From Longimicrobium sp. (GTDB lineage Bacteria; Gemmatimonadota; Gemmatimonadetes; Longimicrobiales; Longimicrobiaceae), in the NCBI GenBank assembly GCA_036387335.1, contig DASVTZ010000004.1, positions 1 through 34,371 on the forward strand: DNA of 34,371 nucleotides, read 5' to 3'. The translations under genes and the position numbers were made by a program. A model generated the notes under the pieces. It was not told the DNA's origin and did not search any database. It saw only the letters and a program-made list of their open reading frames with translations. Shown here one piece after another: positions 7,924-33,263 of this stretch; position 1 is the first letter of the stretch; each line of letters opens with the position of its first letter.

Positions 7924-7941
7924 CGGAACCGCGACAGCGGC

Positions 7942-8117
7942 CTCACGCGGAGACGCGGAGACGCAGAGGAACCACGACTGCAGGGCTCACACAGAGACAC
8001 AGAGACACAGAGAAAAGCAAGTAAGGTTTCTCTGTGGCTTGCGGTTCCCTCTGTGGCCTCTGTGTGAGCTTTTCCTTGTCGTGCCTCTGCGGCTCCGCGT
8101 CTCCGCGTGAGACTTCC
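7942..8117 (+). repeat. Dispersed palindromic repeat, copy 1
   Basis: This is a compound inverted repeat. An outer arm of CTCACGCGGAGACGCGGAG type near 7942 pairs with CTCCGCGTCTCCGCGTGAG near 8092-8111. An inner arm CTCACACAGAGACACAGAG pairs with CTCTGTGGCCTCTGTGTGAG. A related copy in the opposite orientation lies at 33121-33262; both include GGCTCACACAGAGACACAG and end near GAGACTTCC. It sits between two convergent genes. It could be a MITE- or REP-like element or a large terminator. Confidence 0.75.
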
Positions 8118-9572: not shown

Positions 9573-11345
9573 ATGAGAGATCGCGTTCGCACCCACAGGG
9601 CCGCCGCAGTGCTGGCCATCGCCGCGGCGGTGCAGCTCGCCACGCCCGCCCTCGCGCAGCAGGACACCATTCCCACGGTGAACGATCCGCGCGCGACGCT
9701 GCGGGCGGGCACCGGGAACACGGCCGGCATCGCCGCGAAGGGGATGCGGCTCGTCTCCTACACGCCGAAGCCGGCGCAGCTCGACTCGGCGCGCGGGCTC
9801 GCCTACATCAACTCGGACATCGCCTTCCGCGGGACCACGGTCTACCAGGGCAACTTCAGCGGCTTCAGCATCTGGAACGTCGCCAACCCGGCGCGTCCGG
9901 TGCAGCTCAGCACGGTGGTCTGCGCCACGGACCAGGCCGATCCATCGGTCTACGGCAACCTGCTCTTCATCTCCGCCGAATCGCCGCGCTCGCGCACCGA
10001 CTGCGGGATGCAGGGGGTGCAGGACGGCAAGGACCGCATGCGCGGCGTGCGCATCTACGACGTGAGCAACCCGCGCGCTCCGCGGCTGATCAAGAACGTG
10101 CAGACGTGCCGCGGCTCGCATACGCACACCATCGTGCCGCACCCCACCGACCCCACCGTGATCTACATCTACGTCGGCGGGTCGTCCAGCGTGCGCGACG
10201 CGGCCGAGGTGCCGGAGCTCGCGTGCTCCACGGGCTCGGTGGCCGAGAATCCGAACACGGCGGACTACCGGGTGGACATCATCCGCGTGCCGCTGCGTAA
10301 CCCCGAGCAGGCGGCGGTCTCCGGCTACGCGCGCATCTTCCAGGGGCTGCCGCGCCCGGCGGGCCGTGGCGGCGTGGCGCTGAGCGACACCGCGACGGGC
10401 CGCGCCGCGTCGGGGCCGTCGGGGTGCCACGACCTGACGTCGTACCCGGCCTTCCACCTGGTCGCCGGGTCGTGCGGCAGCTTCGGCATCCTGCTGGACG
10501 TGCGGAACCCGGAGCGGCCGGTGGTCACGGACGCCAAGTCGGACCTCAACTTCTCTCTGTGGCACACCGCCGTCTTCAGCAACGACGCCAGGCGCGTCGT
10601 GTTCACCGACGAGTGGGGCGGGGGCACGGCGCCACGCTGCCGCGCCACGGACCCGTTCCGGCTCGGCGGCAACACGGTGCTGAGCATCGCTGGCGGCAAG
10701 ATGACGCAGCACGGCTACTTCAAGCTGCCGGCCGCGCAGACGAACACGGAGAACTGCGTGTCGCACAACGGCGGGCTGGTTCCGGTGCCGGGCCGCGACA
10801 TCATGGTGCAGGGGTGGTACCAGGGCGGGGTGAACGTCTTCGACTTCACCGATCCGACCCGCCCCATGGAGATCGCCTACTTCGACCGCGGGCCGGTGAA
10901 CGCGGAGACGCTGGTGATGGGCGGCTCGTGGGGCGCGTACTACTGGAACGGCTACGTCTACTCGAGCGAGCTGTCGCGCGGGCTGGACATCCTGGAGCTG
11001 CTGCCGAGCGACCAGCTCTCGCGCAACGAGCTGGAGGCGGCCAAGCTCGCGCGGATGGAGGAGTACAATCCGCAGATGCAGCCGCGGATCACCTGGCCGG
11101 CCGCCTTCCCGGTCGTCCGCTCGTACCTCGACCAGCTCGTGCGCAACCGGGGGCTCGCCCCGGCGCGGACCACCTCCATCGCCTCCGCGCTCACGCGCGC
11201 CGAGCGTGTGCGCGGCGCCGTCCGCCGCAACCAGCTAAACGTGCTCGCCGCGCAGCTCGAACGGGACGCGCGTGGGGCGGCGGACGCCCCGCGCGTCACC
11301 GCCATGGCGGCGGCGGTGCGCGACCTGGCCCGCGCGGCGCGGTAG
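9573..11345 (+). CDS. Secreted LVIVD-repeat beta-propeller-like protein
   Basis: A 590-aa protein with a Sec signal (cleavage near LAQQD, about residue 29). The body is a series of beta units of the LVIVD type: FSIWNVANPARPVQLST, VRIYDVSNPRAPRLIKNV, ILLDVRNPERPVVTDA and VNVFDFTDPTRPMEIAYFD. These units build a surface beta-propeller. Several His/Cys motifs (CRGSHTHTIVPH, CVSHNGG) and paired Cys suggest metal binding or disulfides in the periplasm. The last 90 residues are helical and Arg/Ala-rich. It probably shares a transcript with the DUF305 gene, since both are exported and only 36 bases apart. Function is unknown. Confidence 0.8.
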   Translation: MRDRVRTHRAAAVLAIAAAVQLATPALAQQDTIPTVNDPRATLRAGTGNTAGIAAKGMRLVSYTPKPAQLDSARGLAYINSDIAFRGTTVYQGNFSGFSIWNVANPARPVQLSTVVCATDQADPSVYGNLLFISAESPRSRTDCGMQGVQDGKDRMRGVRIYDVSNPRAPRLIKNVQTCRGSHTHTIVPHPTDPTVIYIYVGGSSSVRDAAEVPELACSTGSVAENPNTADYRVDIIRVPLRNPEQAAVSGYARIFQGLPRPAGRGGVALSDTATGRAASGPSGCHDLTSYPAFHLVAGSCGSFGILLDVRNPERPVVTDAKSDLNFSLWHTAVFSNDARRVVFTDEWGGGTAPRCRATDPFRLGGNTVLSIAGGKMTQHGYFKLPAAQTNTENCVSHNGGLVPVPGRDIMVQGWYQGGVNVFDFTDPTRPMEIAYFDRGPVNAETLVMGGSWGAYYWNGYVYSSELSRGLDILELLPSDQLSRNELEAAKLARMEEYNPQMQPRITWPAAFPVVRSYLDQLVRNRGLAPARTTSIASALTRAERVRGAVRRNQLNVLAAQLERDARGAADAPRVTAMAAAVRDLARAAR

Positions 11346-11422
11346 AGGTGCGCGTGCGCGCCGTGAAGACGGGGTGACGGGGTGACGGGCGTCCGGCCGA
11401 GCCCCTCCATGCCCGACGAAAA

Positions 11423-11452
11423 GCGGGGGCCGGATCGTCATCCGGCCCCCGC
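11423..11452. terminator. Strong hairpin after the LVIVD gene
   Basis: A 13-bp perfect stem (GCGGGGGCCGGAT, loop CGTC, exact complement), 77 bases after the stop codon. No T-run follows, so termination would depend on stem strength. Confidence 0.55.
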
Positions 11453-11502
11453 GGCCGTTCGGGGGTGAGTCACAGCTGCCACGTACGTCTGATGTCCCGA
11501 TA

Positions 11503-11537
11503 GAAGCGGGGCAGCGCAACCAGCGCTGCCCCGCTTC
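11503..11537. terminator. Second strong hairpin in tandem
   Basis: A 15-bp perfect stem (GAAGCGGGGCAGCGC at 11503-11517, loop AACCA, complement at 11523-11537), only 50 bases after the first hairpin. Between this and the next gene lies the promoter at 11665-11693. No coding region is supported in 11346-11787. Confidence 0.55.
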
Positions 11538-11664
11538 GACGTGCGGAAGTGGACGAACGTGACGTTTGCGGCGCAAGGAAGTTATTGAAACACATCGTCT
11601 TGACGCGAAGCGGGCGTTGCCCGGAATCATCTTGCGCGACGCTGCGAGGGGGTGAAAAAAAGGC

Positions 11665-11693
11665 TGGGCAAAACGCTCCGATGATGCTATCGT
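11665..11693 (+). promoter_or_regulatory. Promoter of beta-helix gene 1, conserved block
   Basis: TGGGCA (11665-11670), a 17-bp spacer and TATCGT (11688-11693) preceded by TG (extended -10). A 43-bp block at 11668-11710 recurs without a mismatch upstream of the third paralogue (13886-13928), and similarity continues into the leader. A further CGTCTTGACGC box lies about 75 bases upstream in both. Conservation outside coding sequence supports a regulatory role. Confidence 0.55.
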
Positions 11694-11787
11694 ACGCACC
11701 GCGTTACCCCCGGTGACGCGTTCCCGCCGCAGTTCTGTTCCCGCTGTTCCTCTATCCCCACCGTTCCAACCCACACAGGAGTTCTGT

Positions 11788-12639
11788 ATGATCAAGCGTG
11801 TACTCGCGTCCGCACTGTGCCTCGGCGCCATGGCCATGGCCGCCCCCTCGCACGCCTCCGCGCAGGCGACCCGTACCTGGGTCTCGGGCGTGGGCGACGA
11901 CGTGAATCCCTGCTCGCGCACCGCCCCGTGCAAGACGTTCGCGGGCGCCATCTCCAAGACCGCCGCCGGCGGCGAGATCGACTGCCTGGACCCGGGCGGC
12001 TTCGGCGGGGTGACCATCACCAAGTCCATCACCATCGACTGCAACGGCGTGGTCGGCAGTGCCCTCTTCGCGGGTGCCACCAGCGGCATCAGCGTCAACG
12101 GCACCGACATCGTCGTCGTCCTCCGCAACCTGCAGGTCAACGGCGCGGGCACGGGGCAGGTCGGAATCCGGTTCGTCAACGGGAAGCGGCTCGTCATCGA
12201 GAACGTCCTCGTGTCCCAGGCCTCGCAGACGGGGATCCTGGTCAACTCGATGGCCGGCTCGGGCCACGTGGTGATCAACAACTCGCAAATCATCAACGGC
12301 ACCAACGACGGGATCCGGGTGAGCTACGGCGTCACCTCGATCAACAACTCGACGATCGCCGGCAACAGCATCTTCGCGCTGATCGCCGAGAACGGCGGGG
12401 TGATCAACGCCAACAACAACATGATCACCTACAACGGCATCGCGGTGCAGGCCGGCAACGGCGGCGCGGGCCAGAGCGGCTCGTTCGTGAACGTCTCCAA
12501 CAACGGCGTGCACGGGAACCTCACCGCCTTCGTGTGCGCGGGCGGGTTCGTGGCGTCGGACGGCAGCAACCGGCTGTCGAACAACGCCGGCGGCGGCGCG
12601 GCGCCCTGCACGCCGAACGCCACCATCACCAAGCAGTAG
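11788..12639 (+). CDS. Secreted right-handed beta-helix protein, paralogue 1
   Basis: A 283-aa protein with a signal peptide ending at about ASA-QA (residue 28). The mature part begins TRTWVSGVGDDVNPCSRTAPCKTFAGAI, the DUF1565/choice-of-anchor-Q style opening that precedes a parallel beta-helix, and continues with short Asn-rich coils (INNSQIING, INNSTIAGNS, INANNNMITYNGIAV). It ends with Cys pairs (FVCAGGF, APCTPN). AGGAG lies 6 bases before the ATG. No catalytic residues of a pectate lyase are evident, so it could be a surface or matrix protein. It is the first of three tandem copies; a 17-bp stem follows it. Confidence 0.8.
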   Translation: MIKRVLASALCLGAMAMAAPSHASAQATRTWVSGVGDDVNPCSRTAPCKTFAGAISKTAAGGEIDCLDPGGFGGVTITKSITIDCNGVVGSALFAGATSGISVNGTDIVVVLRNLQVNGAGTGQVGIRFVNGKRLVIENVLVSQASQTGILVNSMAGSGHVVINNSQIINGTNDGIRVSYGVTSINNSTIAGNSIFALIAENGGVINANNNMITYNGIAVQAGNGGAGQSGSFVNVSNNGVHGNLTAFVCAGGFVASDGSNRLSNNAGGGAAPCTPNATITKQ

Positions 12640-12646
12640 CCGCACC

Positions 12647-12685
12647 TTCCTCTCCGCGCCGCCACGCCGGCGGCGCGGAGAGGAA
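12647..12685. terminator. 17-bp stem hairpin between beta-helix genes 1 and 2
   Basis: TTCCTCTCCGCGCCGCC at 12647-12663 pairs perfectly with 12669-12685 around a 5-base loop, 8 bases after the stop of gene 1. The same arm sequence, with a bulged base, reappears after gene 2 (13639-13675), showing that the terminator was duplicated with the gene. Confidence 0.65.
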
Positions 12686-12777
12686 TCGCATCACACCGAG
12701 GCGCACTGGGGAAATCCCGTGACGCGCCCCCCCGCTGTTCGGCTCCGCCCCCGCCCCTTCCACAGAGAGGAACCCGT

Positions 12778-13626
12778 ATGATCAAGCGCATCCTGGCGAT
12801 CGCACTTTGTCTCGGCGCCGCCGCCACGGCCGCTCCTTCGAACGCCTCCGCGCAGGCGACCCGCACCTGGGTCTCGGGCGTGGGCGACGACGTGAATCCC
12901 TGCTCGCGCACGGCGCCGTGCAAGACGTTCGCGGGCGCCATCTCCAAGACCGCCGCCGGCGGCGAGATCGACTGCCTGGACCCGGGCGGCTTCGGCGCGA
13001 TCACGATCACCAAGTCCATCACCATCGACTGCAACGGAGTGATCGGCGGCGTCCTGTACTCGGCCGGCAGCGGCGTCACCGTCAACGGCACGGACATCGT
13101 CGTCACGCTCCGCAACATCCAGATCAACGGCCTGGGAACCGGCACCAACGGGGTCCGCTTCTTCAATGGGAAGCGCGTCATCCTCGAGAACGTCTTCATC
13201 ACCGGGAACGCCACGGCGGGGGTCGTGGTGAATTCGATGGCCGGCTCCGGCCACCTGGTGATCAACAACTCGGAGATCGTCAACGGCACCAACGACGGAA
13301 TCCGGGTGAGCTACGGCGTCACCTCGGTCAACAACTCGACGATCGCCGGCAACAGCATCTTCGCGCTGATCGCCGAGAACGGCGGGGTGATCAACGCCAA
13401 CAACAACATGATCACCTACAACGGCATCGCGGTGCAGGCCGGCAACGGCGGCGCGGGCCAGAGCGGGTCGTTCGTGAACGTCTCCAACAACGGCGTGCAC
13501 GGAAACCTCACCGCCTTCGTGTGCGCGGGCGGGTTCGTGGCGTCGGATGGCAGCAACCGGCTGTCGAACAACGCCGGCGGCGGCGCGGCGCCCTGCACGC
13601 CGAACGCCACCATCACCAAGCAGTAG
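12778..13626 (+). CDS. Secreted right-handed beta-helix protein, paralogue 2
   Basis: A 282-aa protein with the same signal peptide, Cys-containing opening and beta-helix coils as paralogue 1. Its last third is nearly base-for-base identical to gene 1: from about 13330 to the stop only three differences are visible against 12345-12639. The centre (GGVLYSAGSGVTVNG, GLGTGTNGVRFFNGK, FITGNATAGVVVNS) is clearly different. GAGAGGA lies 6 bases before the ATG. It lacks the promoter block found before genes 1 and 3, retaining only part of the leader. It may therefore depend on readthrough past the 12647 hairpin or on an unseen promoter. Confidence 0.8.
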   Translation: MIKRILAIALCLGAAATAAPSNASAQATRTWVSGVGDDVNPCSRTAPCKTFAGAISKTAAGGEIDCLDPGGFGAITITKSITIDCNGVIGGVLYSAGSGVTVNGTDIVVTLRNIQINGLGTGTNGVRFFNGKRVILENVFITGNATAGVVVNSMAGSGHLVINNSEIVNGTNDGIRVSYGVTSVNNSTIAGNSIFALIAENGGVINANNNMITYNGIAVQAGNGGAGQSGSFVNVSNNGVHGNLTAFVCAGGFVASDGSNRLSNNAGGGAAPCTPNATITKQ

Positions 13627-13638
13627 CAGCCGCGCGGC

Positions 13639-13731
13639 TTCCTCTCCGCGCCGCCGGGACGGGGCGCGGGAGGAACGCATCACGTGGAGCACGGACGAAG
13701 CGGGAGGACCTCCACAGGGGGGCCTCCCGCT
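13639..13731 (+). terminator. Two successive hairpins after beta-helix gene 2
   Basis: The first (13639-13675) is an imperfect copy of the 12647 stem with one bulged T. The second pairs AGCGGGAGG (13699-13707) with CCTCCCGCT (13723-13731) and is followed by CTTTCC. Together they should end transcription of gene 2. Confidence 0.55.
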
Positions 13732-13882
13732 CTTTCCGTGTCTCCGTCTGACGTTGCCGCCGGCCGGTCGGGGTCGTGGCGGGGCGGAGGACCGGCGCGC
13801 CGGGGAAGCTCATGGGCCGCTTCGTCTTGACGCAAACCGGGCGCATGCGGCGCGAGCCCCCGGCCCGCTGAAGGTCGGGGAC

Positions 13883-13911
13883 TGTGCAAAACGCTCCGAT
13901 GATGCTATCGT
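13883..13911 (+). promoter_or_regulatory. Promoter of beta-helix gene 3, conserved block
   Basis: TGTGCA (13883-13888), 17-bp spacer, TATCGT (13906-13911) with the extended TG. It lies inside the 43-bp block shared with 11668-11710, and the following leader (GTGACGC.TTCCCGCCGCAGTT) is also shared. Confidence 0.55.
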
Positions 13912-14007
13912 ACGCACCGCGTTACCCCGCGTGACGCATTCCCGCCGCAGTTTCGTTCCCGCTCTTCCCGTTCCTGTCGACCAATCCGCACCCACAGAGG
14001 AGTTCTC

Positions 14008-14856
14008 ATGATCAAGCGTGCACTGGCTTTCGCGACGTGCCTCGTCGCCGTGGCCTTCGCTGCCCCTTCGGCCGTTTCCGCGCAGGCGACCCGCACCTGG
14101 GTCTCGGGCGTGGGCGACGACGTGAATCCCTGCTCGCGCACCGCCCCGTGCAAGACGTTCGCGGGCGCCATCTCCAAGACCGCGGCCGGCGGCGAGATCG
14201 ACTGCCTGGACCCGGGCGGCTTCGGCGCCGTGACCATCACCAAGTCCATCACTATCGACTGCAACGGGGTGACCGGCGGCTCCCTCTTCGCGGGTGCCAC
14301 CAGCGGCATCAGCGTGAACGGCACGGACATCGTGGTGGTGCTCCGCAACCTGCAGATCAACGGCGCGGGGACGGGGCAGGTTGGCGTCCGCTTCGTGAAC
14401 GGCAAGCGCGTCATCATGGAGAACGTCCTGGTTGCCCAGGCCTCGGTGGCCGGGGTGCTGGTGAGCTCGATGGCCGGCTCCGGGCACCTGGTGATCAACA
14501 ACTCGCAGATCCTCAACAACTACGACGGGCTCCGCGTCGGCTACGGCATCACGTCGATCAGCAACTCGACCATCGCCGGCAACCAGATCTTCGCGCTGAT
14601 CGCCGAGAACAGCGGCGTCATCAACGCCCACGACAACCTGATCGCCAGCAACGGGATCGCGGTGCAGGCCGGCAACGGCGGGGCGGGGCAGGCCAGCGCG
14701 ACGGTGAACATCTCCAGCAACGGCGTCAACGGAAACCTCACCGGCTTCGTGTGCGCCGGCGGGATCGTGGCCTCGGACGGCACCAACCGGAAGTCGAACA
14801 ACTCGGGCGGCGGCGCGGTGCCCTGCTCGCCGAACGGCGTCATCACCAAGCAGTAG
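14008..14856 (+). CDS. Secreted right-handed beta-helix protein, paralogue 3
   Basis: A 282-aa protein. The signal peptide, opening (WVSGVGDDVNPCSRTAPC) and central coils (LFAGATSGISVNGTDIVVVL, GAGTGQVGVRFVNGK) match paralogue 1 closely. The C-terminal third (NNYDGLRVGYGITSISNS, INAHDNLIASNG, GQASATVNISSNG) has drifted from both others. GAGGAG precedes the ATG by about 5 bases. It has its own copy of the conserved promoter and a strong terminator. As with its paralogues the fold is recognised but no enzyme activity is. Confidence 0.8.
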   Translation: MIKRALAFATCLVAVAFAAPSAVSAQATRTWVSGVGDDVNPCSRTAPCKTFAGAISKTAAGGEIDCLDPGGFGAVTITKSITIDCNGVTGGSLFAGATSGISVNGTDIVVVLRNLQINGAGTGQVGVRFVNGKRVIMENVLVAQASVAGVLVSSMAGSGHLVINNSQILNNYDGLRVGYGITSISNSTIAGNQIFALIAENSGVINAHDNLIASNGIAVQAGNGGAGQASATVNISSNGVNGNLTGFVCAGGIVASDGTNRKSNNSGGGAVPCSPNGVITKQ

Positions 14857-14900
14857 CCGCAACCGCGCCTCACACGGAGGCACAGAGGGAAACGACGAGG

Positions 14901-14929
14901 GGAGGAGGATCGGCGAGCGATCCTCCTCC
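14901..14929 (+). terminator. Terminator after beta-helix gene 3
   Basis: A 12-bp perfect stem (GGAGGAGGATCG, loop GCGAG, complement) followed by TCTTCCGGTTT. The flanks also carry a short CACACGGAGGCACAGAG segment resembling the dispersed palindromic repeat. Confidence 0.65.
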
Positions 14930-14961
14930 TCTTCCGGTTTCCTCCGTTTGCCCGGCGGGGG

Positions 14962-14991
14962 TTGACCCTCCGGAGCGCACCCGGTTACTTT
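14962..14991 (+). promoter_or_regulatory. Promoter of the small membrane protein gene, leaderless type
   Basis: TTGACC (14962-14967) and TTACTT (14985-14990; in the TAnnnT register, TACTTT 14986-14991) are 17-18 bp apart. The -10 ends only 6-7 bases before the ATG at 14998, so the expected transcription start coincides with the start codon. No Shine-Dalgarno sequence is present. Confidence 0.5.
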
Positions 14992-14997
14992 CTCCGC

Positions 14998-15234
14998 ATG
15001 CCGAGACCTACTCCAGCACCCAGCACGCGCACGCCCGCCCGCATCCCGGCGCCGCCCCCGAGCGACACGGAAAGCTCGTTGCGCTTCTCCGTTCCCAATC
15101 TGGCGCTGATCGCCGCCGGGCTGGCCGCCATCGTCCTGGGGTACGTGCTCCTGGCCGGCGGCTCCACGGTGGGGGCTCCGCTCCTGCTGGTGCTCGGCTA
15201 CGCCGTGCTCATCCCGCTCGGCATCATCTGGTAG
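14998..15234 (+). CDS. Small two-helix membrane protein, DUF3098-like
   Basis: A 78-aa protein. A Pro/Thr/Arg-rich cytoplasmic N-terminus (1-30) is followed by two hydrophobic helices (about 33-52 NLALIAAGLAAIVLGYVLL and 58-77 APLLLVLGYAVLIPLGIIW) joined by GGSTVG. The pattern N-x-A-L-I, then G-Y-x-L-L-A-G-G, then a Gly-containing second helix resembles DUF3098 proteins; this assignment is from memory. An upstream in-frame start at 14962 lies inside the promoter and is unlikely. The stop codon is one base from tRNA-Val, so the two are probably on one transcript cut by RNase P. Confidence 0.65.
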   Translation: MPRPTPAPSTRTPARIPAPPPSDTESSLRFSVPNLALIAAGLAAIVLGYVLLAGGSTVGAPLLLVLGYAVLIPLGIIW

Positions 15235-15235
15235 A

Positions 15236-15309
15236 GGGCGCTTAGCTCAGCTGGTTAGAGCACCTGTCTTACACACAGGGGGTCGGGGGTTCGAATCCCT
15301 CAGCGCCCA
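15236..15309 (+). tRNA. tRNA-Val (anticodon TAC)
   Basis: A full 74-nt cloverleaf. The acceptor GGGCGCT/AGCGCCC is perfect, the D arm is GCTC...GAGC, the anticodon stem CCTGT/ACAGG with loop CTTACAC has TAC at 15270-15272, and the T arm is GGGGG-TTCGAAT-CCCTC with one G-T pair. Discriminator A is at 15309; CCA is not encoded. It starts one base after the preceding stop codon. No duplicate of its 3' end is seen in the window, so there is no sign that it serves as an integration site here. Confidence 0.96.
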
Positions 15310-15473
15310 CTTCGTAAGTAGAACAACGGCAAGCACGCGGCACCATTTCCGGCAACACTGAACCTTCTACTACGCGCTGCTCGTCGGCTTCCCCTTACAC
15401 GCCGCCTGGCAGACGGTACCCGTCTATTGGCTCGGGTTTCGTCACGGCTAATTACAAGTTGAGAGGAATCACC

Positions 15474-17012
15474 GTGCACCGCTACCTGCTTTCAGGTGTT
15501 GTTTTGCTGGCGATGGCTTGCGGTGACGGTAGTCCGACGGCTACGGAGGAAGGCTCGAAACCTCGGCAGCCGGCGCAGGTCACGGCTGTCTCGGGCCAGA
15601 ACCAGGAAGGCACCGTCGGAGCCAAGCTCGCGTCTCCTCTCGTTGTAAAGGTGACGACCGGACGCGGGGAGGCAGTGGCGGGGAGCGCAGTCGTGTGGAC
15701 CGTCACCGCAGGTGGAGGAAGCCTCTCATCGTACGCCACGACCACCGACGCAGAGGGGCTCGCGCAGGTGGAGTGGACCGTGGGCACTATCGCGGAACTA
15801 AATACGGCTTCCGCCACTGTCGCCGGCCTTGCGCCTGCAACGTTTACCGTCACGCCGAAGGCTGGTGCGGTGGTCAAGGTGGAAAAGGTCAGCGGCGACG
15901 CCCAGACCGGGGTCGCGGGAAGTCCTCTTCCGACGCAGCTCGTGGTTCGGGCCACCGACATGTACGGCAACCCGGTCAGCGGAGCGACGGTCACGTGGCA
16001 GGTGACTGTCGGGAGTGGTTCCGTCACTCCCGCAACTTCCACCACCGACGCTCTGGGCCTTGCCCGGACAACCTGGAGTGTCGGCGGGGGAGTGAACGGT
16101 CTTTCCGGGGCCGCGACAGGTGCGCCACCGGTTACCTTCACGGCTGTCGCTCCGACCCTGGTCTCTGGCCTCCTCTCGACGAACACGACGTGGACGCTGT
16201 CGAAGTCGCCCTACAGAATGATCGGGAAAGTTCAGCTGGCATCGGGTGCAACCCTAACGATCGAGCCGGGTGTCACCGTCGACGGTCAGGGCAACGACCT
16301 GGAGTTCTGGGGCAGCGTTCGTGCGGTCGGCACCGCTGAATCGCGCATCCACTTGAATGGGGTCCGCCTGCGTTCGGAGGCATCGTTTGAGGATCGGTCC
16401 ACGGTCCTGATCGCCTATTCCGACGTGGCCGGCGGTGCGCTCGGCATCGGAGGGGGGATAAGCGATCTGGACGTGAGTCATTCCCTCATTAAGGGGATTG
16501 GAGCGATGTCCGTGACTGCCTCGTCAGCGGCGCGCCGGATCGAAGACAACGTCTTCAGAGACGGAACCGGCGTCGAGCTGATGTCCGTTGCCCCGACGCG
16601 GTTCGACGTCTACATCCAGCGCAACGTGTTCATCAACACGGGGGGAATCCGCGCGGGATTCTTTGCGGGGAGCTCACTCCCGAAGGCGTATATCCGTAAC
16701 AACTCTTTCTACGACCAGACGACCGATTTCGCCATCAGCGTGTCCAGTGCGGCGGCCGAGGCGACCGTGGTGGAGAACAACAGCTTCTGGAGCACGAACA
16801 GGGTTGCGTTGCGAACAGAGATCGGTGTGCTCGGATCCAACCGGGATTTTAGGGTGAACGCGCAAAACAACTTCTGGAACACGACGGATGAAGCAGTGAT
16901 CCAGTCCATGATCTACGATCGCAACGACGACCCTGCAGGCGCCGGGTATGTCGACTACCAGCCCTTCCTCGCCGCATCGCATCGCGAAACTCCGGTGCGC
17001 GGATCGCCTTGA
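15474..17012 (+). CDS. Lipoprotein with two Ig-like (invasin-type) domains and a beta-helix
   Basis: A 512-aa protein from a GTG at 15474, chosen because AGAGGA lies 6 bases upstream; a TTG at 15459 would add five residues. The lipobox LLAMAC (Cys16) makes it a lipoprotein. Two bacterial Ig-like repeats follow, each with a VSG-Q-G-V/A-G opening and a TDA-GLA-W-VG ending (about 35-120 and 125-215). Residues about 225-490 form a parallel beta-helix with Asn/Phe ladders (IRNNSFYDQTTDF, VVENNSFWSTNR, NAQNNFWNT). Such proteins are typically outer-membrane or surface displayed. Base composition is looser than in the che cluster, suggesting an accessory gene. Confidence 0.75.
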   Translation: MHRYLLSGVVLLAMACGDGSPTATEEGSKPRQPAQVTAVSGQNQEGTVGAKLASPLVVKVTTGRGEAVAGSAVVWTVTAGGGSLSSYATTTDAEGLAQVEWTVGTIAELNTASATVAGLAPATFTVTPKAGAVVKVEKVSGDAQTGVAGSPLPTQLVVRATDMYGNPVSGATVTWQVTVGSGSVTPATSTTDALGLARTTWSVGGGVNGLSGAATGAPPVTFTAVAPTLVSGLLSTNTTWTLSKSPYRMIGKVQLASGATLTIEPGVTVDGQGNDLEFWGSVRAVGTAESRIHLNGVRLRSEASFEDRSTVLIAYSDVAGGALGIGGGISDLDVSHSLIKGIGAMSVTASSAARRIEDNVFRDGTGVELMSVAPTRFDVYIQRNVFINTGGIRAGFFAGSSLPKAYIRNNSFYDQTTDFAISVSSAAAEATVVENNSFWSTNRVALRTEIGVLGSNRDFRVNAQNNFWNTTDEAVIQSMIYDRNDDPAGAGYVDYQPFLAASHRETPVRGSP

Positions 17013-17160
17013 AACAGACGTTCGAAGCGCCCGCAACATGTGGTGAGAGCTGCACCTACGATACGTGCAGCATCGAAGCACGATAGCAGGCGGACCGGGC
17101 GCCCCCCGCGTCTTGACGAAGCGGGTGCGCCCGTGCAATCTGAAGCTTTGACGAACCACG

Positions 17161-17271
17161 GTGGGAGAGACCTTCGGCTACGAGCTGGTGCTCGACCGGC
17201 CCGGTGAATACCAGCTCGAGGTTCGAAGTGGTGGCGATCTCATGGTCAAGCAGCCGATCGTGATCCGGTGA
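17161..17271 (+). pseudogene. Possible C-terminal gene fragment, 36 codons
   Basis: A GTG-initiated frame reads like the end of a real protein (GYELVLDRPGEYQLEVRSG, then a short strand and stop), with a strong beta-strand pattern and no obvious start context; a stop lies 10 bases upstream. It may be a remnant of a deleted gene or a very short ORF. Otherwise 17013-17441 holds two CTTGAC-type boxes (TTGACG near 17114, TTGACA at 17334-17339) and no supported gene. Confidence 0.3.
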
Positions 17272-17441
17272 GAGGTTGCTTCACGCAAGGCAGCACAGCT
17301 CCCCTCTCGCGGGCGCAGCCGCTGAGCTGACTCTTGACACGGGCCTGCCGCGGGAGCACCCTGCGTCAGCCCCGCACGCCGGGCGGCGAGAGATCCGGCC
17401 GCCGGGCACCCACGCGTCCCCCTCCGATCAAGCATACCCCC

Positions 17442-18083
17442 ATGTCCACGCCCCCCTCACCCAGCGGCACGGCCGACGCGATCCCCGCCTGGCGGATCGG
17501 CGGCCACGTGATCCTCGCGTGCAACTGCGATTACGGCTGCCCGTGCAACTTCAACGGCCTTCCAACCACCGGGAAGTGCGAGGGCAACTGGAACTGGCAC
17601 GTAGAGCAGGGCAGCTTCGGCGAGGTAGAGCTCTCCGGCCTCTCCTTTGGGGTGGCGGTCAACTGGCCTGGCGCCATCCACGAGGGTCGGGGCGAGGCGC
17701 TCGTGGTGATCGACGAGCGGGCCGACGACGCGCAGCGCGAGGCGCTCCTCACCCTCGTTTCCGGACGAGCGGGCGGCCCGTGGAAGATCATCGGCACCAC
17801 CATCGACACGGTTCATCCCCCGCGGTTCGCGCCGTTCGAGGTCATCGTCGAAGGGTTTTCGAGCAGCGTGCACGCCGGCGATCTCATCACGCTGGAGATG
17901 GAGCCGGTGCGCAACAAGGTCACCGGCGCCGAGACGCACGCGCGCGCCATCCTCCCGGAGGGATTCGTCTTCCGCGAGGCGGATCTCGGCGCATCGTCGA
18001 CGTTCCGCATCTCGGGGCCGGTGAGCTTCGACCACTCCGGGCGCTACGCGGCCGCCGCGCCGTTCGAGTACCAGGGTCCGTGA
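17442..18083 (+). CDS. DUF1326 protein
   Basis: A 213-aa soluble protein. The defining motif ACNCDYGCPCNFNG is at about 29-42 and supplies four Cys for metal or thiol chemistry, followed by G-C-E-G and long beta-strands (ALVVIDERADDAQREALLTL). It is full length for the family. The 3' end overlaps the DUF2182 gene by four bases (GTGA), and DUF1326-DUF2182 pairs recur in many genomes. The joint function is not established; the membrane partner is often described as a predicted metal-binding protein. There is no clear Shine-Dalgarno. A TTGACA at 17334 could be a -35 of a distant promoter. Confidence 0.88.
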   Translation: MSTPPSPSGTADAIPAWRIGGHVILACNCDYGCPCNFNGLPTTGKCEGNWNWHVEQGSFGEVELSGLSFGVAVNWPGAIHEGRGEALVVIDERADDAQREALLTLVSGRAGGPWKIIGTTIDTVHPPRFAPFEVIVEGFSSSVHAGDLITLEMEPVRNKVTGAETHARAILPEGFVFREADLGASSTFRISGPVSFDHSGRYAAAAPFEYQGP

Positions 18084-18886
18084 GGGCCGGCGGCCTCGCG
18101 AAGCCGGCCGTCGCGTGGCCCGGCGCGGCGTCCCTCGTCCTGGGCGCCGCGCTTCTGGCGTGGGTGGTCATGCTCCGCCAGATGTCCGCCATGGATATGT
18201 CCGCGCCCGGCGGCGCGCCGTCGCTCGGGGATGCGGCGTCGTTCACCGGGCAGTGGGGAGTGATGATGGCGGCGATGATGCTCCCCGGTGCCGCCCCCAT
18301 GATCCTGCTGTACCGCACCGTCAGCCGCCGGCTCTCCGGCGACGGCGACCGCGTGCTGCCGGCGCCCCTTTTCGCGGTAGTGTACCTCCTCCTCTGGCTG
18401 GCGGCTGGCGTGCCGGTGTACGGAGGCTACGTGGTGGTGGGATGGCTAGTCGGCCGCTGGCCCTCGTTCCACGTCGCATGGCCGTACGCGGTAGCGGCCG
18501 TGCTCACCGCCGCCGGGGCCTACCAGTTCACGGCCGCCAAGCGCGCCTGCCTCCGCCACTGCGAATCGCCGCTGGACTTCCTCATGCGGCGCTGGCGAAG
18601 CGGCTACGCGGCGACCCTGGGACTCGCGGTGCGCCACGGGGCGTACTGCATCGGCTGCTGCTGGGGGCTGATGGCGATCCTGGTGGCCGCCGGGGCGATG
18701 GGTCTCCCGTGGGTGGCGGTCATCACCCTGGTCGTCCTCGCCGAAAAGGTGCTGCCTCTTGACGGGTGGACGGCCCGCGCGGTGGGCGCCGGGCTCCTCC
18801 TCCTGGCGCTCGCGGTCGCCCTGCGCCCGGAGCTCGCCGGAACGCTGCGCGGCGATGGGGCGCATGGGACGGCGCACGCGATGTAG
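18080..18886 (+). CDS. DUF2182 integral membrane protein, predicted metal-binding
   Basis: A 268-aa protein with about seven hydrophobic segments. Family motifs are WGVMMAAMMLPGAAPM, YQFTAAKRACLRHCESPLDF and GAYCIGCCWGLM, which place Met, Cys and His residues near the membrane face. The GTG at 18080 overlaps the DUF1326 stop and no other start fits as well. The C-terminus has Gly/His residues (DGAHGTAHAM). It probably acts with DUF1326 as a two-component membrane system. A hairpin at 18930 ends the unit. Confidence 0.88.
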   Translation: MRAGGLAKPAVAWPGAASLVLGAALLAWVVMLRQMSAMDMSAPGGAPSLGDAASFTGQWGVMMAAMMLPGAAPMILLYRTVSRRLSGDGDRVLPAPLFAVVYLLLWLAAGVPVYGGYVVVGWLVGRWPSFHVAWPYAVAAVLTAAGAYQFTAAKRACLRHCESPLDFLMRRWRSGYAATLGLAVRHGAYCIGCCWGLMAILVAAGAMGLPWVAVITLVVLAEKVLPLDGWTARAVGAGLLLLALAVALRPELAGTLRGDGAHGTAHAM

Positions 18887-18929
18887 GTCCGGCGGAGCGT
18901 CGCCCGGGATGGCGTGCATCAAACGAATC

Positions 18930-18958
18930 CGGGGGCGGTCGCATGGCGGTCGCCCCCG
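18930..18958 (+). terminator. Hairpin after the DUF1326-DUF2182 pair
   Basis: CGGGGGCG (18930-18937) pairs with CGCCCCCG (18951-18958) across a 13-base loop, 43 bases after the stop codon. The U-tract is absent. Confidence 0.45.
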
Positions 18959-18976
18959 ACTCGTGTGCGTTGGTGG

Positions 18977-19029
18977 TCAGTACCGGAACGCCACCTTGAT
19001 GCTCCCGCTCCCCTTCCTGTCATTTGCGG
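18977..19029 (-). repeat. Alcohol dehydrogenase 3'-end fragment A
   Basis: 53 bases match the 3' end of the dehydrogenase gene (27812-27864) with four mismatches, the first 40 being identical. Read on the minus strand it still encodes KGSGSIKVAFRY and a stop. It carries no start and is separated from the rest of the gene by about 9 kb. Confidence 0.85.
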
Positions 19030-19053
19030 AAAGGCGGGGCATGTGCGTGCCCA

Positions 19054-19084
19054 TTGACCCTCACGTTGCGTGATCCCTTAGCTT
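19054..19084 (+). promoter_or_regulatory. MerR-type promoter with 19-bp spacer
   Basis: TTGACC (19054-19059) and TAGCTT (19079-19084) are separated by 19 bp, the over-long spacing characteristic of MerR-activated promoters. The spacer is centred on the inverted repeat TCACG-TTG-CGTGA (19061-19073). The MerR-cupin gene starts 49 bases downstream, so autoregulation by DNA twisting is likely. Confidence 0.7.
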
Positions 19085-19132
19085 GCGACGCACCCGTGGG
19101 GGAAGGGTCCACCGGAGAGGGGGAGGAGAGCG

Positions 19133-19966
19133 ATGGCCTACACGGTCAAGCAGGTAGCGCGGCTGTCGGGCGTCAGCGTGCGCACGCTGCACTTTTACGA
19201 CGAGGAGGGCCTGCTGAAGCCCGCCTACACCGGCGCGAACGGTTACCGCTTCTACGAGGAGCCGCAGCTCCTGACCCTCCAGCAGATCCTCTTCTACCGG
19301 GAGCTCGGGTTCGAGCTGCGGCAGATCCGGGAGCTCCTCGGCCGGGCCGACTTCCAGCGGGTCGACGCGCTGCGGGCGCACCGCGTGGCACTGGAGGAAA
19401 GGCTCGCGCGGTCGCGGCGGCTGCTGGAGACGATCGACCACACCATCGACCACCTGGAAGGGAGGAAACCGATGAACGACGAGCAGATCTTCGCGGGGTT
19501 CACCGTCGGCGCGGGGGACGACCGTTTTGGCGAGCGCGTGCGGCTCGCCGGGGAGCCGAACGACTGCAAGGTGGCGGCGGCGGATACCGGCGGCGCGATG
19601 TCCGTCTTCGAGTTCCGTGGGCGCAACGGCTGGCCGCGGCACTCCCACCACGAGCAGGACGAGTGGCTCTACGTCGTCGACGGCGAGATCGCCTGCGACG
19701 TGGGCGACCGGCGGTTGCGCCTGCTCCGCGGTGAGTCGGTATTCGTGCCGCGCACCGTGGCGCATGCGTGGGCATCGCGGGGCGAGGAGCCGGCCACGGT
19801 CCTCGAAGTGTACCAGCCCGCCGGCCGCCTGGAGCAGTTCTTTCGCGAGCTCGGCCGGTTCACGGACCCGCCGGTCCACGAGGCGCTCTCGATCGACGAG
19901 ATGAAGCAGCTGTTCGACGCGCACGGCATGCGCCTTCTTGGGCCCGGGCTCGGCTATCCCGACTGA
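19133..19966 (+). CDS. MerR-family regulator fused to a cupin sensor domain
   Basis: A 277-aa protein. Residues 1-70 form a MerR winged helix (YTVKQVARLSGVSVRTLHFYDEEGLL), residues 75-110 the usual antiparallel dimer helix, then a linker beginning PMNDEQIF. Residues about 140-235 are a cupin: HSHHEQDEWLYVVDGE gives the HxH...E metal site and VFVPRTVAHAW the second His. The C-terminal 40 residues are helical. A cupin in place of the commoner TipAS-type ligand domain suggests sensing of a small polar ligand through a bound metal. GGGGAGGAGA precedes the ATG. A decayed fragment of the cupin part lies at 23318-23411. Confidence 0.88.
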   Translation: MAYTVKQVARLSGVSVRTLHFYDEEGLLKPAYTGANGYRFYEEPQLLTLQQILFYRELGFELRQIRELLGRADFQRVDALRAHRVALEERLARSRRLLETIDHTIDHLEGRKPMNDEQIFAGFTVGAGDDRFGERVRLAGEPNDCKVAAADTGGAMSVFEFRGRNGWPRHSHHEQDEWLYVVDGEIACDVGDRRLRLLRGESVFVPRTVAHAWASRGEEPATVLEVYQPAGRLEQFFRELGRFTDPPVHEALSIDEMKQLFDAHGMRLLGPGLGYPD

Positions 19967-20000
19967 ACGCCCGCCGATCGGCTTCGGTCGCCTTCCCGCA

Positions 20001-20342
20001 TCAACCAACCTCGTCGGCAATCCCAACTGCGGAGTAGTGGCACTTGGCGAAGTCGAGCCGCGAGTCTCGCAGGAGCGATTGATCCGTCACGAACGCAATA
20101 CCGATTGCCAGGTTTCTCATTCCGGCGACGATGCTCGTTCCTACCAGGCGCGCCACCACGATCAGGTGCGAAACAGAGTGCGGCGCACCGTCGCGATTCC
20201 AGATGATTGGCGTTTGCAGCTCCGCAATCCAGTAGTCTGGACGGTCCGAGCCTGGAATCTCACGAAGGAGAACCGCTTCTAGCGGAAGCTGCTCGTACAG
20301 CTCCTCGGGTGCAGAGTCGAGGGAGTGGATGGAGATCTTCAT
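20001..20342 (-). CDS. Hypothetical small protein
   Basis: A 113-aa cytoplasmic protein, mixed alpha/beta, rich in Leu/Ile. It begins KISIHSLDSAPEELYEQLPL and carries DYWIAELQTPIIWN. The frame is open far upstream, but sequence before Met 20342 looks like antisense shadow. The Shine-Dalgarno is weak. It is convergent with the MerR-cupin gene (34 bases apart) and followed upstream by dehydrogenase fragment B. The size and Trp/acidic content recall immunity-type proteins, but no family is recognised. Confidence 0.5.
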   Translation of the reverse strand: MKISIHSLDSAPEELYEQLPLEAVLLREIPGSDRPDYWIAELQTPIIWNRDGAPHSVSHLIVVARLVGTSIVAGMRNLAIGIAFVTDQSLLRDSRLDFAKCHYSAVGIADEVG

Positions 20343-20440
20343 GCGCGTGGCGGGGCTGCCGGGGGTGAGTGGTGTCAGCGGGGCGGTGCGGCGCGCCTCG
20401 TCCGCCTCACGTCTGAAAAGAGTGAGAGACGTTCGCTCGA

Positions 20441-20492
20441 TCAATACCGGAACGCCACCTTGATGCTCCCGTTCCCCTTGTTGTCCATCGCG
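20441..20492 (-). repeat. Alcohol dehydrogenase 3'-end fragment B
   Basis: 52 bases match 27812-27863 with three mismatches. On the minus strand it reads ALIAMDNKGNGSIKVAFRY and a stop, against ALLTAMDKKGSGSIKVAFRY in the intact gene, so similarity reaches a little further at protein level. It lies 14 bases after the stop of the winged-helix gene 20507-21181. Confidence 0.85.
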
Positions 20493-20506
20493 ATCAGGGC
20501 GCGGCG

Positions 20507-24172: not shown

Positions 24173-27100
24173 ATGCGCTTCTGGAGCTGGCTGAGTCGCG
24201 GATTGAGGAGCCTGCTCGCTGGAGCGAATTCCGACTCCGACGCACACTCCCAAGGAGTTGAGACGCCAACGCAGTCCGGCATGGACACGAGTTCTGCGGT
24301 AGCAGCAGGCGCTCGCGCTGTCGCGATCGGCGGAAACGCGGACAGGAGCACCATCGTTACGGGAGACTACGTAACTGTCCACGTCAGTTACAGTGCACCC
24401 GAAGCTCACGAGAGCCACCAACGCGCCATCGAAACACTCGCCCTCGTGCGGCAGATCGCGGCCAATCAGCCCGCGCATGTTGCCATACCGCCTGCCCCCG
24501 AGGCGGAGCAAACCCGTTGGTCTGCGAAGCTCGACCTAGTCAGAGAGCTGATCAACAGCGGGAAACTGGCGTCGGCGCTGGCGGCGCTTGACGCGATGGA
24601 GCGCGACTCCGCCCCGCCGGCTGTCGATGTGGAGTTGGAGCGTTTGCACCGGTACTCCGGTATCGTACTGTACCGAGTCGGCCGCACTGCAGAGGCTCGG
24701 GAGCGACTGCAGAAGGCTCTGACATACAACCCCCGGGAGTTTTCGACCCTCGCCATCATGGCCGCAGTGCATTCATCGCTTGGCCACAATGACGAGGCTA
24801 TCGGCTTTGCGCAGCGTGCGGTCGCCTTGGATCAAGCGTCCGCGTCCGCATGGGCGATCCTCTGCGACGCAGCGACTGCCGCCGGGCAGGAGGTGGATGT
24901 CCCCGAGGCGATCGCGAGAGCCCCGGAGGTGCTCGTCTCGCGAGCCAACGCCGCGCTTGTAAAAGAAGAATGGACTTCCGCGATCCAGTTGCTCGAAGAT
25001 GCCGCCGGTGCGGCTGGGGCGTCCGGTTACTCCCGAATGCTGCTCCTCGCGCATGCGTACATCGCCCGGAGCCGATCGTCGGACCCGGTGCATGCCGCTT
25101 GTGATCTGAACGCGGCGCGGCGAGTGGTGGATGAACTCCTGGTTACAGTTCCAGAGGACGACGAGAAGCCACGATATGTCAGCCAGGCACTCCTGCTTCG
25201 GGCCGCCGTCCGGGGCCGACTCGGGGATGCAGACGGCGAGCTGCAGGATCTTCGTGCGGCGGTTCGGAACGATCCCAGCTCCACCGCGGCGGTGTTCACC
25301 CTGTCAGCGGCTTACCTGGAGCGCGATAGGCCCGGTGAAGCTGCTGAACTCCTCGCGGACCATCCTGAACTCGGAAATGATCCGATGCTTGGGGCGCTCC
25401 GCCCTTCCATACTTCGGGCTACCGGTCAGTCCGCCGAGCAGGTGCGGTCTGCGCTGATAGAGGCACTCCGCAGGGCTTTCGGCGCACCGAACGAGGCACA
25501 GATCAGGACCATGCTCGCGGAGATTGCGCTGGAGGCGGAGCTGATCGACGCCGCGGTGGATCTGCTCGCCACCGTCACCGAAGCGGACTACTGGTTCCAA
25601 ACCATCCTCCGCGCCAGGATTGCGGACCGGTCGGGGGACGCGCACGGGGCGAATGTCCTGTATCGCCGCGCTGTCGAGACCGCTTCTACGAACGATCAGG
25701 TCGGAGCGCGGATGGAGTGGGCATCGTTCCTCCGTCGCCAGGGCGATCTGGAGGCTGCGCTGGCGCAGCTGACCGCGGCGGACGCAGCTAGTGCCGACGA
25801 GGACACGCGCCGGCGTTACGTGAAGTGGCTGCACGAGGCTGGCGATTACGAACGGGTTGCAGAAGTCGTAGACCGCGCAAACCGCGACGGGATCCGCTCT
25901 GCGTGGGTGCTCGAGGTCCAGAGTTGGCTCGCACACGTCCGGGGGGACGTACCGGGCGAGCTCCGCACCCTTTCAGAGTGGATCAAAGTGGAGCCGGGGC
26001 GCGCAGATGCGCACCTCAACCTTGCACACGCGCACCTGCGTCTGGGCGATCGGGAAACGGCTGCGGCCGTTCTCGATGGCTTTACGCACCTCTCGGTACT
26101 CACTCCAACCGAGGAGATGGGCTTCGCGCAACTACTGTTTGAAGTAGGCCGCGTCGGCGCCGGCTTGGAGATGGCGCTTCACGCTGTCCGGCGGGACCGT
26201 TCCGATGAGAGGCTCAAGGGTGCGTTCGCCCATATGTTCCTGAGTCGTAGGGATTCGGTTCTGAGCACTCCCCCCACCAAGGTTGCGGCCGGGGTGCACG
26301 TGGTTCTTGTGGGACAGAGCGGGGAGCGACAGGAGTACACGATTTTCGCCGATGAACCAGTAGATCCGTCACGCGGAGAGTACCTACCCACGGACCCGGT
26401 CGTTCAGTCACTCATCGGGTTGACAAAAGGAGAACGCGTTGTGCGGCGGCCTGGGGCGCCGACGGAGGCGGTATACGAGGTAGCCGAGTTGAAGCCAGTG
26501 CTGCTGCACATGTTTCATCAGATTCTGAGCCGGTTCGGTCAGGAGCACCCCGACAGCCGGATCATGCAGCAGGTCCACATCGGTGAGGAGCCCTCTCTCC
26601 AGCGGTTCGCGCCCGTCATTCAGTCGGTGTTTCAGCGCGCAGCAGGTGCCGACGAAGCGGTGCGCGTATACGAGGAGCTGAGGGTCCCGCTGGGATCTCT
26701 CGCCGCAATACTGGGACGCAGAATTCCTGATGTTTATGCTTACCTTGCCGGTACCGATGGCAAGCATCTGTATGCGGAGTTCGGGGATGCGCTGCACTTC
26801 GAGTTGGCTGTGCGGGAGGCGTCCCAGCCAACTATCGTTCTGACACGGTCAGCGCTCCTCACTGCGGGTGAGCTCGGGTTTCGACATCAACTACCTGAGT
26901 GGTTTGTGCGCCTGATCGTACCTCGGTCCCTCGTCGACGATCTCGCCGACGAGCTCAGGGAGCTTGAGAAACCGCTGGGTGAGAGCCGACAGACACTGAG
27001 CTCGACCGGAGGCCGGCTCGTCCTCCACGAGTTTACTCATGAAGAGCTTCGCACCGCTAAGGCGGAGCGGGAGGAGGTCCTTCGCTGGGTTCGTGACACG

Positions 27101-27730
27101 TGCTCCGTCGAACCGCTGCCTTCCAATTCGCTCACGACTGCGGATCGGTGGTGGCGTGAGGCCATCGGCACCAGCTCATACGACTCCTACGTTCTGGGGG
27201 TCGCGCTGAACATACCGGTGCACGCGGACGACCTGGGGTTGCGCCTCGTGTCTCCCGGAGATTGTGGCAAGCAAGTACGGGGATTCTCGAGTTCGGCGCT
27301 TCTTACGTCGTTGCATGCGCGGCGTATGCTGGAATCCGCCGAGTACCACCGGCACCTCACGCGGCTCGTGGAACTCCAGCATGTGCACGTACCGGTCTCT
27401 TCAAGCTTATTTGAGGCGGTGCTGTTCGAGGCGGGGTTTTTGGTCGATCCGAGTGTAATGAGGGTATTCGCCCGGCTGTCAGGCGTCTACTCGCTCGCTC
27501 AAGACGCGATCGATGTGGCTGCGGAGCTCATCAGGGCTGTTGCCAAGTCGACCGCCTCTCATCGACTTTACGCGGTGGCGACCCTCTGCATGGAGTACCT
27601 GTGGGACGGCCACCCGCAGCCGGGGACGCTCTCCGCATTCGCCGCCGCTGTCCGCATAAGGTTGTATCTTCTCCCGCTGGCGAGGGACAGCTTCGAGCAG
27701 GCCCTCAATGACTTCCGTCAGGCGCGGTAG
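24173..27730 (+). CDS. Large TPR / GreAB-C-like / PIN-like conflict-system protein
   Basis: A 1185-aa cytoplasmic protein. Residues 43-70 repeat the partner's motif (AVAIGGNADRSTIVTGD). About 110-700 is a long array of TPR-like helices (VLYRVGRTAEARERLQKALTYNP, EAIGFAQRAVALD, DAHLNLAHAHLRLGDRETAAAVL). About 705-770 resembles the C-terminal domain of GreA/GreB (EYTIFADEPVDPSRGEYLP, VVQSLIGLTKGERVVRR, YEVAELKP). About 885-1030 is PIN-like (PTIVLTRSALLTAGELGF; SYDSYVLGVALNIPVHADDL), with a helical C-terminal region. This order matches what I recall as the TPR-GreAB-C-PIN predicted conflict system; the PIN part would be the RNase effector. The first PIN position, usually Asp, is Thr here. Third-position GC is visibly lower than in the che cluster, suggesting transfer. 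Confidence 0.75.
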   Translation: MRFWSWLSRGLRSLLAGANSDSDAHSQGVETPTQSGMDTSSAVAAGARAVAIGGNADRSTIVTGDYVTVHVSYSAPEAHESHQRAIETLALVRQIAANQPAHVAIPPAPEAEQTRWSAKLDLVRELINSGKLASALAALDAMERDSAPPAVDVELERLHRYSGIVLYRVGRTAEARERLQKALTYNPREFSTLAIMAAVHSSLGHNDEAIGFAQRAVALDQASASAWAILCDAATAAGQEVDVPEAIARAPEVLVSRANAALVKEEWTSAIQLLEDAAGAAGASGYSRMLLLAHAYIARSRSSDPVHAACDLNAARRVVDELLVTVPEDDEKPRYVSQALLLRAAVRGRLGDADGELQDLRAAVRNDPSSTAAVFTLSAAYLERDRPGEAAELLADHPELGNDPMLGALRPSILRATGQSAEQVRSALIEALRRAFGAPNEAQIRTMLAEIALEAELIDAAVDLLATVTEADYWFQTILRARIADRSGDAHGANVLYRRAVETASTNDQVGARMEWASFLRRQGDLEAALAQLTAADAASADEDTRRRYVKWLHEAGDYERVAEVVDRANRDGIRSAWVLEVQSWLAHVRGDVPGELRTLSEWIKVEPGRADAHLNLAHAHLRLGDRETAAAVLDGFTHLSVLTPTEEMGFAQLLFEVGRVGAGLEMALHAVRRDRSDERLKGAFAHMFLSRRDSVLSTPPTKVAAGVHVVLVGQSGERQEYTIFADEPVDPSRGEYLPTDPVVQSLIGLTKGERVVRRPGAPTEAVYEVAELKPVLLHMFHQILSRFGQEHPDSRIMQQVHIGEEPSLQRFAPVIQSVFQRAAGADEAVRVYEELRVPLGSLAAILGRRIPDVYAYLAGTDGKHLYAEFGDALHFELAVREASQPTIVLTRSALLTAGELGFRHQLPEWFVRLIVPRSLVDDLADELRELEKPLGESRQTLSSTGGRLVLHEFTHEELRTAKAEREEVLRWVRDTCSVEPLPSNSLTTADRWWREAIGTSSYDSYVLGVALNIPVHADDLGLRLVSPGDCGKQVRGFSSSALLTSLHARRMLESAEYHRHLTRLVELQHVHVPVSSSLFEAVLFEAGFLVDPSVMRVFARLSGVYSLAQDAIDVAAELIRAVAKSTASHRLYAVATLCMEYLWDGHPQPGTLSAFAAAVRIRLYLLPLARDSFEQALNDFRQAR

Positions 27731-33085: not shown

Positions 33086-33120
33086 TCCCGCCGCCTCGTC
33101 GGAGACAGAGAACAACAGCG

Positions 33121-33262
33121 AAAAGCCTCACACAGAGGCCACAGAAGGAACTGAAAGGCCACAGAAAACCCTTCTGCGGTTCTCTCTGTGCCTCTGTGTC
33201 TCTGTGTGAGCCATGCAGTTGCGGTTCTTTCCTGCGTCTCTGCGCCTCTGCGTGAGACTTCC
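33121..33262 (-). repeat. Dispersed palindromic repeat, copy 2
   Basis: On the minus strand it parallels the 7942-8117 element: TCACGCAGAGGCGCAGAGACG, then CTGCATGGCTCACACAGAGA, CACAGAG units, a turn, and CTGTGGCCTCTGTGTGAG. It has the same compound stem architecture and opposite orientation. It fills nearly all the space between the TlpA-like gene stop (33264) and the start region of the acyltransferase. Confidence 0.75.
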
Positions 33263-33263
33263 G

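Follow-up and report, generated by a model that had tools for sequence, protein, structure and literature searches.

Antigenic variation by segmental conversion is known from gonococcal pilE/pilS, Borrelia vlsE and Anaplasma msp2. Among beta-solenoid proteins, the Bartonella pbhR clusters comprise tandemly duplicated parallel beta-helix repeat genes that the authors regard as diversifying (PMC3610622), while the consecutive genes Giant1-5 of Apilactobacillus kunkeei encode extracellular proteins in which beta-solenoid domains occur and recombination tracts are predicted (PMC12863079). Conversion between tandem paralogues is well established, and recombining or diversifying beta-solenoid arrays have been published (PMC12863079, PMC3610622). 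Here, we describe an array of three tandem genes in a stretch of 34,371 nucleotides (the window) of contig DASVTZ010000004.1 from a Longimicrobium sp. of the Gemmatimonadota (assembly GCA_036387335.1, genome G000). Gene 1 (g1, 11788-12639, forward strand) encodes a predicted secreted right-handed beta-helix protein of 283 residues with a match to PF13229. Its paralogues g2 (12778-13626) and g3 (14008-14856), both likewise on the forward strand and coding for 282 residues, are the only further copies in this genome. We consider it probable, at roughly three chances in four, that segmental conversion has taken place within this tandem array, whose genes encode paralogous secreted beta-helix proteins.

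All three proteins have the same layout: a signal-peptide-like start, read as extending to about ...AQA, precedes a head (TRTWVSGVGDDVNPCSRTAPCKTFAGAISKTAAGGEIDCLDPGGFG...), behind which beta-helix coils make up the body. A preliminary description of the locus had placed the array correctly and had depicted the genes as a patchwork. An alignment computed over the codon-aligned columns of g1, g2 and g3 bears this out, as identity is clearly non-uniform along the genes. In the 3' third (columns 541-852), g1 and g2 agree at 308 of 312 columns, which confirms their reported near-identity over the last 300 bases, compared with 267 of 312 for g1 and g3. As had also been stated, g1 and g2 differ in the centre (columns 241-480; 181/237 identical, as for g2 and g3), whereas g1 and g3 share 203 of 240 columns there; the proposed match between g3 and g1 in this region therefore holds in relative terms (85% vs 76%) but is not a close one. 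The fixed opening begins close to where the signal peptide ends (columns 61-240, with 172/180 for g1/g2 and g1/g3 and 169/180 for g2/g3), while conservation is poor in the first 60 columns (46/60, 47/60 and 41/60 across the three pairs). The head proper, at the mature N terminus (11863-12027 in g1, forward strand, alignment columns 76-240), is near-constant in g1-g3 and across phyla. Pair-exclusive sites in the codon alignment number 81 for g1=g2, 54 for g1=g3 and 24 for g2=g3, most of the first kind lying in the 3' half and most of the second 5' of column 475. In terms of types, the protein encoded by the 5' two thirds of g1 is closest to g3 and to h3, where h1-h3 denote the corresponding genes of the congener G006, and from about 12286-12298 to the stop codon g1 is almost identical to g2. 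The centre of g2 belongs to the other type and is nearest to h2, its 3' third is common with g1, and the 3' third of g3 is of a type of its own. The homogenised 3' tract covers 12298-12639 in g1 (forward strand) and about 13285-13626 in its partner g2, and identity falls just past the stop codon.

Silent sites indicate when this homogenisation occurred. Between g1 and g2, Fisher tests on rounded silent counts distinguish the 3' half, with 5 differences at 91 sites, from the centre, with 17 at 62 (p 0.0003), and also from the 3' halves compared between species, namely g1/h1 (18/91, p 0.006), g2/h2 (18/92, p 0.006) and g3/h3 (14/90, p 0.03), as well as from a flanking orthologue (74/460 between species, p 0.008). 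Correspondingly, synonymous divergence (dS) in the 3' third is 0.06 for g1/g2, 0.17-0.25 to the h genes and 0.18 for the flanking orthologue. Since the silent divergence of g1 and g2 lies below that of orthologues between the species, the 3' third appears to have been homogenised after the split from G006. The centre is different. Here, g1 and g3 show a nonsynonymous divergence (dN) of 0.09 and a dS of 0.45, above the species split as gauged by the flank (dS 0.18), which rules out recent copying of the g3 centre into g1. The centre protein type of g1 and g3 is also found in h3, and that of g2 groups with h2; hence, the centre types predate the species split, and the likeness of g1 and g3 is kept by protein-level constraint or older exchange. 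Within the heads, dS is 0.07-0.14 among g1-g3 and 0.26-0.39 to the h genes, and Fisher tests give p 0.01 and 0.05 in two comparisons with small numbers, so that homogenisation of the heads among g1-g3 is weakly suggested. Recent segmental conversion, which the preliminary description had proposed for the entire patchwork, is thus upheld for the 3' third of g1 and g2, weakly so for the heads, and not for the centre. The shared opening is mainly attributable to strong protein constraint across phyla, with some homogenisation in addition.

The ratio dN/dS amounts to 0.44-0.63 over columns 241-852 (seven pairs), against 0.03-0.19 in the head (except for g2/h2 with 0.39) and 0.16 for the flanking orthologue. 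The body is therefore under weak constraint, a result that falls short of positive selection. Within the body of the six congener proteins, strand positions vary more than others (63/113 vs 33/85), and a confinement of the variation to loops is accordingly unsupported.

The longest g1=g2 run spans 52 polymorphic sites (columns 555-695) and is matched in none of 5000 permutations, and the maximum-chi2 breakpoint in g1 falls at columns 499-511 (about 12286-12298; 0/10000 permutations). In trees of seven homologues (g1-g3, h1-h3 and k1), the centre unites g1, g3 and h3 with a support of 99, while the 3' third unites g1 and g2 with a support of 95. When all 945 topologies were evaluated with all sites by the approximately unbiased (AU) test, 31 fitted the centre and 68 the 3' third, and none fitted both (AU at least 0.05).

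The analysis covered one genome per species. Among 61 genomes searched, the gene was found in three, all of one genus: G000 and G006, each with a triplet, and G001 with a single gene. A phylum-wide search returned the same three of 395 genomes. The triplet of G006 is syntenic with g1-g3, with a left flank of 2.5 kb that is 92% identical and with gene number and order kept. In the congener G004, the stretch corresponding to 11346-14856 (forward strand) is absent from stop codon to stop codon; the orthologue of the left gene is followed by 15 bases and then by the sequence right of g3, and the junction contains a palindromic repeat. The contig of G005 ends inside the left gene. The rarity of the gene in the phylum (3/395) would favour gain by transfer over loss in G004.

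Chimeric genes could also arise by unequal crossing-over or by expansion and contraction of the array, with palindromic repeats 3' of the stop codons aiding its loss and rebuilding. The empty site of G004, which lies between stop codons and carries such a repeat, would suit this scenario, as would the hairpins behind the genes. A GC-rich hairpin of type A lies in the g1-g2 spacer (12640-12777, forward strand) and recurs after g2 and h3, whereas type B, found behind g3 (14888-14942, forward strand) and after h1 and h2, is part of a class of dispersed palindromic repeats or similar to them; the two types are shuffled among the genes without regard to gene order. These repeats are numerous: with no more than one mismatch, the 19-mer CTCACACAGAGRCACAGAG occurs 221 times in G000, 369 times in G006 and 78 times in G004, and the reversed control not at all. 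Yet, g1 and g2 cease to be nearly identical close to the stop codon, and the likeness does not continue into the next spacer: the spacers 3' of both genes are about 88% identical over 49 bp only, just past the stop codons. This drop is more in keeping with a conversion tract bounded at both ends than with a crossover, and gene number and order are the same in G000 and G006. Crossing-over is hence regarded as an unlikely explanation, albeit one to be taken seriously. Elsewhere in the window, dispersed palindromic repeats of about 180 bp occur at 7939-8113 and 33107-33291, with the core CTCACACAGAGACACAGAG, of which the genome holds more than 200 matches, and another copy is situated between h1 and h2 in G006 (L086 4087-4299).

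Beyond the genus, a scan of genome contigs yielded 181 candidate relatives, of which 78 distinct loci were kept. According to record titles, they belong to Acidobacteria, Alphaproteobacteria, Gammaproteobacteria, Myxococcota, Bacteroidota and other groups. More than one member open reading frame (ORF) is present in 21 of 80 loci (the 78 together with the stretches from G006 and G001), some of the second ORFs encoding far longer proteins. For alignment, 62 of 89 ORFs were combined with 7 congener proteins into a set of 69 sequences, 27 being omitted to limit the size of the set, including that of Legionella anisa. Averaged over positions, the most frequent residue reaches 0.92 among the 62 distant members in residues 26-85 vs 0.44 in the body, the former value being biased upward since the loci were picked via exact peptides (such as VGDDVNPC and KSITIDCN); without positions 35-42 and 79-85 the mean stays at 0.92, with linked bias remaining, and more distant members have changed heads. 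Identity is patchy along the gene in several of the 22 multi-copy loci examined (one Blastocatellia pair being counted twice, as L046 and within L133). In the mosaic array L132 of Bradyrhizobium semiaridum, successive 75-nucleotide blocks of one gene and its neighbour are 67, 59, 44, 55, 61, 65, 68, 80, 91, 79, 95 and 97% identical, one pair of the Blastocatellia array L133 starts at 93-100% in its first four blocks and falls to about 50%, and L075 is patchy as well. Two alignments of four copies were tested further, and in either one 8 of 12 focal tests came to at most 3 of 1000 permutations, with the same weakness that maximum-chi2 displays under the one-topology simulations described below. 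One family member, L129 (G406:C105:27298-28179), contains two in-frame TGA codons and is apparently a decayed copy. No description of this family was found among open-licence papers as judged from titles and abstract openings.

With regard to fold, g1 scores 35.6 bits against the Pfam family PF13229 (Beta_helix; cut-off 25.9) over residues 88-211, so that the near-constant head (residues 26-85) falls outside the match. At an E-value of 0.001, 33 of the 69 family members match PF13229, and g2 and g3 do not. Proteins of this family carry the NCBI name 'right-handed parallel beta-helix repeat-containing protein'. An AlphaFold2 model of g1 based on the 69 sequences (predicted local distance difference test, pLDDT, 86.8; predicted template modelling score 0.81) is a right-handed beta-helix with strands to near the C-terminal end, in which the head includes stretches of low confidence (residues 34-41 and 43-48, pLDDT below 50). 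No assigned role was found for residues 26-85, the most conserved part. The Pfam scan of the 282-283-residue proteins gave only Beta_helix, for g1 only, and hence no C-terminal autotransporter domain; a recognised surface anchor was not found in the g1-g3 proteins either, their start being signal-like. A search of PDB sequences returned no relative at an E-value below 0.2, and searches of PHROG and PADLOC, one with g1-g3 and one with g1 and g3, gave no match at 0.001. A plasmid or phage origin was set aside as well, as tblastn with g1 had, within the limits applied, no match among 72,556 plasmid and 50,697 phage records.

Comparisons with Foldseek and VIA-align gave right-handed beta-helix proteins as best matches, with Z 23.6 to both 8ja4 (root-mean-square deviation 2.8, 239 aligned residues) and 6kfn (2.7, 227 aligned). 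Alginate epimerases and lyases as well as pectate lyases are the best structural matches, and the proteins might accordingly be polysaccharide lyases or epimerases, with conversion merely keeping an enzyme family alike. The fold alone, however, shows no function, and the ionisable body residues of g1 that are conserved in at least 70% of the 62 distant members are limited to R113 (97%) and E138 (85%), with no clustered set among them. An enzymatic role therefore appears distinctly unlikely. Most likely, the proteins would act as non-catalytic secreted binders, present as several variants side by side, and their ligand would be a carbohydrate or some other component of the outer layer.

An account without any recombination would invoke an old duplication followed by uneven selection, under which the head remained constrained while the centre of g2 and the 3' part of g3 diverged fast. 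Several observations weigh on its side and against conversion. The head is constrained in all members, and the centres of g1 and g3 are alike in protein and unlike at silent sites. One-topology simulations with segment-specific branch lengths reach the observed maximum-chi2 value in 145 of 300 cases on the overall tree and in 251 of 300 on the centre tree, although in only 2 of 300 on that of the 3' third; maximum-chi2 alone is thus not decisive, and was set aside as sole proof of recombination. With third positions alone, 93 of the 945 topologies are acceptable to both segments, which indicates that silent sites are short of power in the topology test. Neither runs (p 0.24 for g1/g2) nor the breakpoint (930/10000) are significant when restricted to silent sites. 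Moreover, the segments were picked after inspection of the data, and the genome is a draft of 265 contigs. What this account fails to explain is the drop in silent differences between g1 and g2 from centre to 3' third to below the level of between-species orthologues, which protein selection does not produce, and the lack of any topology that fits both segments with all sites. We therefore consider it very doubtful. An assembly artefact, by which reads of near-identical copies were collapsed or crossed over in this draft with a contamination estimate of 3.07, is scarcely credible, given 9 differences, silent and non-silent, in 369 compared sites of the tract, the location of all three genes on one contig with different spacers, and the recurrence of mosaics in independent assemblies.

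Upstream of g1, a repeat at 11664-11750 (forward strand) holds the box GCTCCGATNATGCTATCGT (11675-11693) and is 92% identical to the repeat upstream of g3 (13882-13968, forward strand), which has the same box at 13893-13911. In both G000 and G006, the box precedes genes 1 and 3 of the triplet and occurs nowhere else in the six genomes searched; the middle gene is without it in both, h2 having a degenerate form. No sigma-70 consensus was found in 11300-15300. Judged by its conservation only, the box may be a promoter or operator.

Mechanistically, segmental conversion could proceed by non-reciprocal homologous recombination of the RecA type, in which direct copies swap segments. The conserved heads and 3' parts would supply the stretches of identity needed for starting the exchange, and the solenoid would tolerate the swapping of coil blocks. 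Between exchanges, the body may drift under little constraint while the head is held. In the present case, the 3' third would have been copied between g2 and g1 after the split from G006, with g2 as the likelier, if weakly supported, donor to g1. Conceivably, the family, spread over many phyla with a near-invariant head and a free body, could represent a diversity-generating locus of free-living bacteria, whose tandem copies trade solenoid-coil blocks with the box-less middle copy as donor and thus alter a recognition surface (for phage, neighbours or glycans) without the involvement of hosts or immune systems; this proposal is a long shot.

The surroundings of the array contain several further features. 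The left neighbour (9573-11345) shows a weak choice-of-anchor B match (TIGR04312, below cut-off) and has multiple matches apiece in nine of ten genomes of the genus. Right of the array, 15312-20493 lacks a nucleotide match in the G006 stretch L086 (5.2 kb in the window against 6.4 kb in L086) and lies between two matching blocks; within it, 15459-17012 encodes a Big_1 protein and 17276-18886 a PpoB2-type protein. Further on, 24173-27730 encodes a protein of 1185 residues with TPR repeats, a weak GreA/GreB C-terminal match and a PIN-TPR-GreABC domain (PF20698), which has no PADLOC match at an E-value of 0.001.

The recurrence across phyla together with the fixed head constitutes the interesting part of these findings, which point to a widespread secreted family with residues 26-85 as its most conserved portion. 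The array may serve as a small natural example of how segmental exchange diversifies a solenoid scaffold. Together with two sister species, an empty site and parallel arrays in further phyla, it lets rate, donor bias and selection be measured. Relative to PF13229, which is a fold-level family, the predicted fold is what is held in common. The pbhR genes come from a pathogen, have complex repeats and are linked to autotransporters, and their likeness to the array is one of description (PMC3610622). The Giant proteins have 3,000-8,000 residues and tracts predicted among strains, whereas the exchange considered here is between paralogues in one genome (PMC12863079). With antigenic-variation cassettes, the array shares constant and variable parts and segments copied between paralogues. 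In such cassettes one copy is expressed and silent copies serve as donors; in the array, two of the three genes have their own 5' box, and the exchange is seen in one genome per species. By analogy with such cassettes, the array could be viewed as a case of surface-protein diversification.

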